A DNA stretch of 38,485 nucleotides from an uncultured bacterium (GTDB lineage Bacteria > Bacillota > Clostridia > Christensenellales > UBA1242): NCBI GenBank assembly GCA_949474265.1, contig CASXBC010000010.1, forward strand, positions 1-38,485. The letters run 5' to 3'. The translations under genes and the position numbers were made by a program. A model generated the notes under the pieces. It was not told where the DNA came from. It saw nothing but the letters and a program-made list of their open reading frames with translations, and did not search any database. Of this stretch, positions 2,950 to 4,637 are shown piece after piece. Position 1 is the first letter of the stretch. Every line of letters starts with the position of its first letter.

Positions 2950-3405
2950 ATGGCAAAGTATGAAGCAAGCGAAGTTGCAGCAAAATGGTGGGCAGACAAA
3001 TTGGATGGCTCTGCAAAACAAGATAATGGAGCACCAGAAATGGCTGGTGGCTTTGGAGCATTGCTTATGATGATGAGTTCAATGAAGAATGCTGTTGATG
3101 CTGGCAAGAGAGAAGAATTTAGAGCTATATTGGAAGCAAAAGTTGATGAAGCACTTGAACGCTATGGCTCTTGCAATTTGATGGTTGATTATGGTGCGGA
3201 GGGTTTGCTTGCTCTTGCTGCACAACAAGTTGGAATTAACTGTGGAACAGGCAGTGCTTTTCCTGTTAAGACCTTTATGACTGTTTCAAAAGAATCAGTT
3301 AAAGTGTCTTATGGATATGGTGCAACACCAAATCAAATTTACAAACAAGACCCAACAAAAGCTTCTGCAGAAGGCAAGAAAAATTCTGACGGAGGAAGGG
3401 TTTAA
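2950..3405 (+). CDS. Unknown 151-aa cytosolic protein
   Basis: I cannot assign a function. The protein is soluble, with no signal peptide or membrane segment. The N-terminus is helical with AAKWWADKL (residues 10-18), followed by a Gly/Met-rich patch (MAGGFGALLMMM, 31-42), a charged helix (53-71), a GINCG motif (95-99), AFPVKTFM (103-110) and KVSYGYGA (118-125), and a polar tail. I have the impression of similar AAKWWAD...NCG...FPxKT proteins in gut Firmicutes and phage genomes, but that is recollection, not a search. The start is firm: AAAGGAG lies just before the ATG at 2950. It has its own promoter (2853-2881) and terminator (3416-3438), so it is a single-gene unit beside the regulator module. 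Confidence 0.8.
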   Translation: MAKYEASEVAAKWWADKLDGSAKQDNGAPEMAGGFGALLMMMSSMKNAVDAGKREEFRAILEAKVDEALERYGSCNLMVDYGAEGLLALAAQQVGINCGTGSAFPVKTFMTVSKESVKVSYGYGATPNQIYKQDPTKASAEGKKNSDGGRV

Positions 3406-3415
3406 AAATTAAATC

Positions 3416-3438
3416 AAGAGACAGTAGTCTCTTTTTTT
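3416..3438 (+). terminator. Intrinsic terminator after the 151-aa unknown gene
   Basis: AGAGAC (3417-3422), loop AGTA, GTCTCT (3427-3432), then seven T. Confidence 0.85.
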
Positions 3439-3448
3439 ATTGCAAACA

Positions 3449-3467
3449 ATCTGATTATTAATCAGAT
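3449..3467. promoter_or_regulatory. Palindromic operator O1 upstream of the first XRE regulator
   Basis: A perfect 19-bp inverted repeat with arms ATCTGATTA and TAATCAGAT around a central T (3458). The 17-bp core TCTGATTATTAATCAGA recurs exactly at 3958-3974 in front of the second regulator. Its centre lies 48 bp upstream of the regulator start at 3506. It is probably the binding site of one or both HTH proteins encoded here. Confidence 0.75.
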
Positions 3468-3505
3468 ATGAAGTTTTTTATTTTATTTATTGGCAATATA
3501 TCTAT

Positions 3506-3715
3506 ATGAATAATGAAACTTTTGGAGCTAGACTTAAATCATTAAGAATAGAGCAGGGGCTTACGCAGGTCAAACTTGCTGAAGCCTTGAAAATAGATAA
3601 GTCTACAATAGCAAAATATGAAACTGATAAAATCACACCTAGCATAGAAATGCTAATTGTTTTTGTTAAGTATTTTGGTGTGACAGCAGATTATTTGCTT
3701 GGGCTTGAAGATTAA
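3506..3715 (+). CDS. XRE/Cro-CI family HTH repressor, copy 1
   Basis: This 69-aa protein is a single HTH_3 domain: FGARLKSLRIEQGLTQVKLA (helices 1-2), then the recognition region KIDKSTIAKYETD, then the closing helices ending DYLLGLED. It has no C-terminal sensor or dimerisation domain, so it is a minimal dimeric DNA-binding protein like phage Cro. No Shine-Dalgarno sequence precedes ATG 3506. Operator O1 lies upstream, which suggests autoregulation. The recognition region DKSTIAKYETD is identical in the second regulator at 4019, although the rest of the two proteins has diverged, which explains why both carry the same operator. The 3' end overlaps the stop of the minus-strand gene by 4 bp. 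Confidence 0.88.
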   Translation: MNNETFGARLKSLRIEQGLTQVKLAEALKIDKSTIAKYETDKITPSIEMLIVFVKYFGVTADYLLGLED

Positions 3716-3942
3716 TTTTTTGTTATCTCTTGCCATATTGCGTGTGATAAACAATCTATGTTATCAGATTTAAAATAATTCATTAAAATTTGTGTTATTT
3801 CTTTGTTGTTCCAAAGAAATCTGTTTCTTATTTTCATACAAACTGCGAAATGTAATGTGAAAGAGTCAAATTGAATTATTTTGTTAATTTCTATTTCTTG
3901 TTTCATTTCTTCTTTTATTTTATTTAAAAGTGATTTTACCAT
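3712..3942 (-). CDS. Small 76-aa protein, resembling DUF6794-type proteins
   Basis: The gene lies opposite and between the two HTH genes. It is supported by a good ribosome site (TTGGAG, 6 nt before the ATG at 3942) and by a promoter at 3984-4012. The protein starts with a Lys/Glu-rich helix (residues 1-22). Next comes a segment LHFAVCMKIRNRFLW and a C-terminal SDNIDCLSHAIWQEI. The order 'HF-x-x-x-M-x-IRN...LW' followed by an acidic DxxSxxI motif reminds me of the DUF6794 family of small unknown bacterial proteins; this is pattern memory only. There is no signal peptide or membrane segment. The shared operator makes co-regulation with the HTH proteins likely, so a toxin-antitoxin-like or regulatory partner role is possible but unproven. 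Confidence 0.7.
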   Translation of the reverse strand: MVKSLLNKIKEEMKQEIEINKIIQFDSFTLHFAVCMKIRNRFLWNNKEITQILMNYFKSDNIDCLSHAIWQEITKN

Positions 3943-3956
3943 TTTTTCTCCAACAA

Positions 3957-3975
3957 TTCTGATTATTAATCAGAA
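3957..3975. promoter_or_regulatory. Palindromic operator O2, same core as O1
   Basis: Arms TTCTGATTA and TAATCAGAA around a central T at 3966. It lies between the divergent starts of the 76-aa gene (3942, minus) and the second HTH gene (4019, plus). The core matches O1 for 17 of 17 bases. Confidence 0.78.
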
Positions 3976-3983
3976 TGCAAGTA

Positions 3984-4012
3984 ATTATACTGATTATCTG
4001 TCAGAATGTAAA
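3984..4012 (-). promoter_or_regulatory. Promoter of the 76-aa minus-strand gene
   Basis: On the minus strand TTTACA (4012-4007), 17 bp, TATAAT (3989-3984). The spacer holds operator O3, and the new transcript runs through O2. On the plus strand TATACT (3986-3991) overlaps this -10 box and may serve the second HTH gene. Confidence 0.6.
3990..4004. promoter_or_regulatory. Half-degenerate operator O3
   Basis: CTGATTA, central T, then CTGTCAG: one perfect and one imperfect half-site. Its centre is 31 bp from that of O2 (about three helical turns), suiting cooperative binding on one DNA face. It lies inside the 17-bp spacer of the minus-strand promoter. Confidence 0.6.
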
Positions 4013-4018
4013 GAGAAA

Positions 4019-4225
4019 ATGGGTAAAAGTATGTATACGTTAGGAAAAAAACTAAAAGAATTGAGAGAAGAAAAGGGGCTTACACAAATAGAGTTGGCTC
4101 AGATTTTCTTTTTGGATAAATCTACAATTGCAAAATATGAAACAGATACAATTGAGCCAACATTTACAATGATTAAACGCTTTGCAAAGTTTTATAAGGT
4201 TGACCTCAATTATTTTGATGATTAA
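4019..4225 (+). CDS. XRE/Cro-CI family HTH repressor, copy 2
   Basis: This 68-aa protein is a single HTH_3 domain: LGKKLKELREEKGLTQIELA, then FLDKSTIAKYETD, then a closing helix ending NYFDD. The frame is open further upstream, but those codons run through operators O2 and O3 and overlap the opposite gene. ATG 4019, with AAAGAG at 4010-4015, gives a length matching copy 1 (69 aa); ATG 4031 is the alternative. The recognition region is identical to copy 1, while most other positions differ, so selection appears to have kept DNA specificity. Two operator sites lie directly upstream, indicating autoregulation and cross-regulation with copy 1. Confidence 0.85.
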   Translation: MGKSMYTLGKKLKELREEKGLTQIELAQIFFLDKSTIAKYETDTIEPTFTMIKRFAKFYKVDLNYFDD

Positions 4226-4246
4226 TACAATGCTTATTGAAAATAC

Positions 4247-4275
4247 TTGACAAGTAAATATATTTATGTTAATTT
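4247..4275 (+). promoter_or_regulatory. Promoter of the rpsF operon
   Basis: TTGACA (4247-4252), 17 bp, TAATTT (4270-4275). It leaves a 5' leader of about 75 nt before rpsF, long enough for autoregulatory structure, though I cannot identify a known S6:S18 leader in it. Confidence 0.55.
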
Positions 4276-4355
4276 ATATATGCAGTAAAAATTTGCTGTC
4301 CTTGCTCTTTTGCGGTTGTTGCATGAGAGCCATTAGTCCAAAAGGAGGTAAAAAG

Positions 4356-4637
4356 ATGAATAAGTACGAACTTATGTTTATCGTTGAGAGCGATGTTTCT
4401 GAAGAGAAAAGAGAACAACTTATCGCAAAATTCAAAGCTTATGTTGAAGCTCACAACGGAAATCTCGAAGGTATCGAGAAAGTTGGCATGAAGAAACTTG
4501 CTTATCCTATCAACTTCAAAAACGAAGGATTTTATGTTATTTTCAACATGAACATGGACCCAACAGAAGTTGATGCTATGAGCAAACTTATGAACATCAC
4601 AGATGGTATTTGCCGTCACATGTTTGTAAGAAAATAG
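4356..4637 (+). CDS. rpsF: 30S ribosomal protein S6
   Basis: S6 binds the central domain of 16S rRNA as a heterodimer with S18, encoded two genes downstream. The 93-aa product begins MNKYELMFIVESDVSEEKRE and contains KVGMKKLAYPINFKNEGFYV, both diagnostic of S6, and has normal length. The frame extends upstream to 4266, but ATG 4356, behind a near-perfect AAAGGAGG at 4341-4348, is the canonical start. The order rpsF-ssb-rpsR is the usual Bacillota operon. Confidence 0.97.
   Translation: MNKYELMFIVESDVSEEKREQLIAKFKAYVEAHNGNLEGIEKVGMKKLAYPINFKNEGFYVIFNMNMDPTEVDAMSKLMNITDGICRHMFVRK

Follow-up and report, generated by a model that had tools for sequence, protein, structure and literature searches.

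A Conserved Chromosomal Module of Miniature Xre-type Genes and a DUF6794 Gene with a Probable Transcriptional Lock

Introduction

The immunity regions of lambdoid phages, represented by CI and Cro, comprise small helix-turn-helix (HTH) repressors, overlapping divergent promoters, and several spaced operators, and in these regions the repressor and its operators are exchanged together between relatives. Xre proteins also serve as the antitoxins of type II toxin-antitoxin systems, of which HigBA and MqsRA are examples. The locus described here likewise has small Xre-type HTH genes and palindromic operators, which in this case surround a short gene assigned by profile matches to Pfam family DUF6794. 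Among the papers searched, none names DUF6794 and none describes such an HTH-DUF6794 module. The locus occupies positions 3449–4225 of a stretch of 38,485 nucleotides (contig CASXBC010000010.1 of assembly GCA_949474265.1, from an uncultured bacterium of the family UBA1242), which was analyzed as a whole and is designated the window. A published account of gut Christensenellales with genomes smaller than 1 Mbp, in which the family UBA1242 includes the genus Onthoplasma (PMC12306168), is in rough agreement with the window.

Organization of the Locus

Gene A (3506–3715, forward strand) encodes an Xre/Cro-type HTH protein of 69 residues that matches HTH_3 at 4.2e-16, and gene B (4019–4225, forward strand), which is divergent from E, encodes a second protein of this type (HTH_3, 4.7e-14). 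Comparison with relatives suggests that B may start at the ATG at 4031, which gives 64 residues, instead of at 4019, which gives 68. Gene E (3712–3942, reverse strand) lies between the two, encodes 76 residues, matches DUF6794 at 1.1e-4, and is the presumed effector. Genes A and E are convergent, and their stop codons overlap by 4 bp (3712–3715); the same overlap is found in genomes G004 and G015, a longer one in G036 and G001, and none in G034. Homologues of A occupy the same position in G034, G015, G004, and others, as do homologues of B in the relatives. A preliminary description of this stretch had reported twin Cro/CI-like proteins with a common DKSTIAKYETD recognition stretch, separated by a small protein encoded on the opposite strand. 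The recognition stretch is indeed identical in A and B, and the 69 residues of A and the size and place of E agree with that account.

Operators and Promoters

The palindrome TCTGATTATTAATCAGA occurs exactly at 3450–3466 and 3958–3974, as first described, and nothing else in the window comes within three mismatches of it. Counted on both strands, this gives four matches versus 0.31 expected, a number reached in none of 100 shuffles. In the genome of origin (1.11 Mb, 52 contigs), the exact palindrome is confined to these two places at the module, and the scatter through the genome that the preliminary description had said would count against its interpretation is not seen. Near-copies were found at one place with one mismatch (C2:78964) and at three places with three mismatches; the former sits within an open reading frame and was dropped as a candidate operator.

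The first copy, O1 (3450–3466), is an exact match with the class-1 core CTGATTATTAATCAG and lies upstream of A, with its center 47.5 bp before the ATG; in relatives the site is 47.5–49 bp before the ATG of A and is recognizable for 14 of 16 A genes, the sites of G015 and G004 being not above shuffles. The second copy, O2 (3958–3974), also exact, lies between E and B, just 3' of the presumed transcription start of E, and scores at least 11/12 in 13 of 15 class-1 modules (the operator classes are described below). The third, O3 (3990–4004), is a degenerate operator, CTGATTATCTGTCAG, that lies in the spacer of the presumed promoter of E at a distance of 31 bp, center to center, from O2, where a half-degenerate copy had been noted; it scores 10/12 in all 15 class-1 modules. 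The O2–O3 spacing is 31 bp in 15/15 class-1 modules, a count that includes three with a damaged E, and 30 bp in 9/9 class-2 modules. The distance between O1 and O2 is 499–539 bp, corresponding to 47.5–51.3 turns of the helix; the phase is not constant, and DNA looping between these sites is therefore unsupported.

A signature of the class-1 O3 (three or fewer mismatches, 112 genomes) was found at 18 places in 17 genomes, compared with none for a reversed control. Seventeen of these places are at E loci, one of them being the O2 of G388. The remaining one, in G016, adjoins a mazF-like gene; judged by eye, it has the remains of a pair of operators and is taken as a decayed module. A search with the palindrome that was independent of E (61 genomes, two or fewer mismatches) gave matches in 17 genomes. 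Besides the locus itself, four of the matching places are at E loci (G034, G035, G005, and G015); near-copies in other genomes were followed where E was near and, in addition, in G029, where the stretch around the near-copy had no E or HTH match.

The presumed promoter of E, on the reverse strand, consists of a −35 box, TTTACA (4012–4007), and a −10 box, TATAAT (3989–3984), with a 17-bp spacer and, at 11/12, is the best match in 3300–4400. A promoter scan gave 6 promoter-like sites versus 6.8 in shuffles, so that the assignment rests on conservation in relatives and not on the scan. Both boxes are conserved in class 1, and the arrangement originally noted, with an operator inside the spacer of a promoter on the E strand, is thus present and retained in relatives. 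As read from sequence, the 17-bp spacer of class 1 is taken up by O3, which is followed by O2, and the −10 box varies in some members. The corresponding spacer of class 2 has 18 bp, lies between TTGACA/TATAAT-like boxes before E, and is occupied by the first operator; in several members, the start codon of E is ~6 nt past the −10 box, an arrangement like that of a leaderless mRNA, which is predicted for E in these members. A GGAG sequence at 3948–3951 (reverse strand), read by eye, is the likely ribosome-binding site of E in the window. O1 sits 5' of the likely −35 region of A, a position from which activation of A is as possible as repression.

The DUF6794 Protein

The E protein of the window scores 22.5 bits against DUF6794 (PF20594), under the curated cut-off of 27.1, in an alignment that covers positions 10–77 of the 83 in the profile. 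All 16 aligned relatives match the family at an expect value of 0.1 or lower (best, 1.6e-9), and the protein of G001, with 30.4 bits, is above the curated cut-off; judged from these profile matches, E is a member of DUF6794. Values of dN/dS are 0.09–0.33 in six pairs of relatives that are >60% identical, and E is under purifying selection. Ile9, His31, Arg39, Asn40, Leu53, Asp63, Ser66, and Ile69 are invariant in the 16-row alignment of E proteins (alignment A3); His31, Arg39, Asn40, Asp63, and Ser66 appear more like parts of a functional site than of a mere contact surface. The structure predicted with AlphaFold2 contains helices only (mean pLDDT 88.5, pTM 0.78). Comparison of E with the sequences in the PDB gave no matches at an expect value of 1 or lower, and Foldseek searches with the model gave 6 matches at 10 or lower in the PDB and 40 in the BFVD set of viral structures, none of them at 0.001; these searches of sequence and fold gave no hint of a toxin. 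Among the PADLOC models of phage-defense candidates, PDC-M10A was matched weakly by 2 of 16 E members (best, 0.0016) and PDC-S02 by 1 of 16 (0.00061), and no stronger match to a defense family was found.

DUF6794 was found in 8 of 297 genomes of the order at 0.001 or lower and, at 1e-5, in 2 of 391 genomes of the class and 2 of 398 of the phylum, these samples being overlapping. A search with alignment A3 in 396 genomes of the order gave 10 matches, 8 of them within the genus. Outside the genus, a divergent Xre-type gene is present at three of nine DUF6794 loci, L101 (genome G541), L102 (G549), and L050 (G196), all from other families. The Xre-type gene of L101 is just under the Pfam cut-offs, and the DUF6794 gene of L102 carries an internal stop; palindromic letters are visible by eye between the two genes of L102 and before E in L050. 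No adjacent HTH gene was found at L048, L049, L053, L097, L121, or L122. At L101, which is from another family of the class, a barstar-family gene (1097–1372, 3e-18) is also located near the DUF6794 gene and its divergent neighbor.

Distribution within the Genus

An initial search for E in 61 genomes, including that of the window, gave matches in 11 at an expect value of 0.01 or lower, of which three (G049, G054, and G055; 0.007–0.01) were inspected and dropped. The genus was represented by 112 genomes, and a profile of seven E proteins gave matches at 32 places in 30 of them. These comprise 24 intact loci, defined by an open reading frame of 73–99 residues from ATG to stop; five damaged or remnant loci; and two spurious matches, in G009 and G003, that lie within longer unrelated frames and were left out of the 24. 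The intact loci are distributed over 23 genomes, G250 carrying two. In the damaged group, the E of G332 is in two pieces at two places, those of G345, G347, and G005 have an internal stop, and that of G342 is a remnant of 32 residues.

An HTH gene divergent from E is present at 24/24 intact loci (in G339 its start appears to be frame-shifted), and relatives of the 76-residue protein do, as had been anticipated, stand beside such regulators. The convergent gene A is present at 16 of these loci and missing from 8. In G035, both A and B are replaced by HTH_26 proteins; because its E is 79% identical to that of G034 despite the different HTH families, E seems not to need one particular HTH partner.

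These loci bear on a second interpretation, in which E and the HTH protein form a type II-like toxin-antitoxin pair and the HTH protein also neutralizes E by direct contact. HigA and MqsA are examples of Xre proteins that act as antitoxins, and there are weak model matches in keeping with this. In addition, B is kept in three of the five loci with a damaged E (G332, G345, and G347) and gone in two (G005 and G342), the damaged copies being few and derived from metagenome assemblies. However, all 24 intact loci have E and the HTH genes on opposite strands and in no shared operon, the HTH proteins, with 60–75 residues, have little outside the HTH domain, and the HTH partner is exchangeable. We consider neutralization by contact decidedly unlikely.

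Joint Variation of Recognition Helix and Operator

Recognition helices of class 1 (ST-I-AKY) go with the operator CTGATTnnnAATCAG and those of class 2 (S-S--NKWENG) with the operator AGCACnnnnGTGCT. This was assessed in 42 upstream regions at a 90% threshold, the rows being related and hence not independent: a class-1 site was present in 21 of 25 class-1 regions and a class-2 site in none of them, whereas 14 of 15 class-2 regions had a class-2 site and none had a class-1 site. The two other regions had neither site, and there was no crossover in all 42. The four class-1 misses are the A regions of G015 and G004, which are at the level of shuffles, and the B regions of G004 and G347, which have weaker sites; the class-2 miss is the A region of G351 (8/10). 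On the E tree, the three class labels need four changes. Two further pairings, each read from one locus and hence descriptive, are those of the G381 B protein (SVSIISKWENG) with AGTAAAGTTTTACT, for which there is one clear site only, and of the G386 B protein (QSAISMWETG) with AGTTATAACT. Unlike B, the A protein of G386 has a class-1 helix and its gene a perfect class-1 O1. A further Xre-like gene (L070, 2110–2301) lies downstream of B in G386. In G250, two modules that differ in operator class (L055 and L071) are present in one genome, which provides a natural test of insulation between repressor types.

With respect to competition of the CI/Cro type, A and B share an operator class in the window, but 8 of 24 loci are without A and the classes of A and B differ in G386. 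The self- and cross-regulated circuit of the preliminary description is therefore upheld in part: a circuit with shared operators around a small gene has strong support from relatives, whereas cross-regulation is not general. A bistable CI/Cro-like switch with no toxic output would also result if E were itself a regulator that binds A or B and acts as an anti-repressor or co-repressor. In keeping with this, the divergent promoters have operators in common, E is small and predicted to be all-helical, and an HTH gene constantly adjoins it. On the other hand, the HTH genes of G035 encode HTH_26 proteins and the B protein of G386 is of another kind, yet the E proteins of both genomes group with class-1 E proteins, and the invariant residues discussed above resemble a functional site; a regulatory role for E thus appears unlikely.

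Origin of Gene A

The HTH sequences cluster by class and not by position. A tree that keeps all A sequences together, as expected for one old lineage, was rejected (p-AU 1.4e-7) in a test that used 38 of the 42 rows, leaving out four unstable B rows; the alignment was short, the bootstrap had not settled, and the question was posed after the first tree had been seen. The right half of O3, TGTCA, is kept 31 bp beyond O1 in 8 of the 10 A promoters of class 1; it is absent from those of the window and G034. In class-2 A promoters, the second site is whole in G339, represented by its right half in G351 and nearly so in G036, partial in G250b, and not recognizable in G001 and G356. Since the distal operator is still present in the promoter of A, together with half of the proximal operator at the original spacing in most of class 1, A is most likely the left-over B of a duplicated E-B unit that lost its own E, and this would have happened more than once. 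Homogenization of A and B is a possible alternative to repeated duplication.

Genomic Neighborhood

Where species have flanks in common, these resemble housekeeping genes. On the left, seven loci encode a SecA-like protein. Five have an SSB protein on the right, next to the S6-like product of rpsF. AcpS-like and MazF-like proteins are encoded at six, including the G342 remnant and G005 (other orientation), and Obg-like and Nth-like proteins at four. The S6, SSB, and MazF names are from Pfam, and the others were recognized by eye. These shared flanks indicate that the module occupies several chromosomal sites, each common to some species. Several single-repressor modules lie directly behind a MazF-like toxin gene (left flank of L075, L077, L080, and L081). 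In the window, an HD-domain paralogue (2235–2816) of the protein encoded at 1629–2216 stops early (HD_3 profile positions 14–110 of 165) and is followed by an open reading frame in the same frame (2652–2816), so that it looks interrupted by an in-frame stop. The sequence at 2950–3405 encodes a protein of 151 residues that has no Pfam match and matches phrog_8937, a family of unknown function, at 3e-15; a relative of this protein is encoded on the right side of the module in G369.

Stable chromosomal sites common to groups of species, purifying selection on E, and the lack of a weighty match to toxin or defense families would suit a small protein of ordinary metabolism or of the stress response that is controlled by a local repressor and takes no part in toxicity or defense. 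Against this, the patchy presence of E (30 of 112 genomes) and the double lock appear to exceed what a housekeeping function needs, and we regard such a role as very improbable. A phage origin was also suggested in the preliminary description, and A does match the phage repressor family phrog_8 at 8.7e-22. Matches of this kind are usual for HTH_3 proteins. E had no match in phages and plasmids, nor in viral contigs searched with a peptide pattern and tblastn; for a DUF6794 protein of another family, phages likewise gave nothing and plasmids gave one distant match. With these results for E, and with ssb, rpsF, and mazF among the shared flanks, the idea of a phage-derived switch was abandoned, and a remnant lysogeny switch is hardly credible.

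Proposed Mechanism and Comparison with Known Systems

Gene order, operators, their spacing, the joint change of helix and operator, and selection on E together identify, at the level of sequence, a real conserved module. Its parts are ordinary; exchangeable and repeatedly doubled repressors are unusual. We think it probable that in this chromosomal Xre-DUF6794 module miniature Xre repressors lock a small effector gene, E, at the level of transcription. In the mechanism that we infer, which extends to binding, repression, the trigger, and the role and toxicity of E, dimers of B would occupy O2 and O3, which are separated by some three turns of the helix, and in this position would bar RNA polymerase from the promoter of E and limit the expression of B itself. 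A, which has the same recognition helix in the window, could use the same sites and add to the dose of repressor; B would then be the core lock, with A as a spare that arose by duplication. A fall in repressor through dilution, proteolysis, titration, or loss of the locus would then lead to synthesis of E. Given such a circuit, a growth-modulating, toxin-like role would be our first choice for E, and we put it forward tentatively. The toxin-antitoxin-like module that the preliminary description offered as an alternative to a phage-derived switch may also hold. A more elaborate proposal is a guard module of a new kind, in which transcriptional repressors alone would hold off the DUF6794 effector and could be swapped for members of unrelated HTH families; their removal or titration, for instance when the locus is lost or host transcription is taken over, would fire the effector, and the twin form would recur by duplication of effector and repressor with loss of one effector. 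We view this proposal as doubtful.

DUF6794, a Pfam family whose function is not known, gains from this analysis a recurring partner and a regulatory logic. The modules also form a natural series of matched repressor-operator pairs in one fixed architecture, with two well-populated classes and two single cases, and so provide a ready data set on how repressor specificity and operators change together, which also bears on whether control of transcription is enough to hold a gene that may be harmful.

Among known systems, the module is similar to the lambdoid CI/Cro regions in its small HTH repressors, divergent promoters, spaced operators, and joint change of repressor and operator. It differs from them in having a single DUF6794 gene as its output and, in most modules, twin HTH proteins of one helix class, and no phage genes or phage relatives were found for it. 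With HigBA and MqsRA it has in common a small effector candidate beside an Xre protein and palindromic operators; in contrast to these systems, its HTH genes are on the other strand and in no shared operon with E, the HTH partner is exchangeable, and the toxicity of E is a supposition. The module resembles CreTA (PMC10097628, PMC8501985) in that its effector is presumably silenced at transcription and not by an antitoxin protein. Whereas CreTA combines an RNA toxin with a CRISPR effector, the module described here combines a protein-coding gene for a putative effector with repressors of the Xre type.
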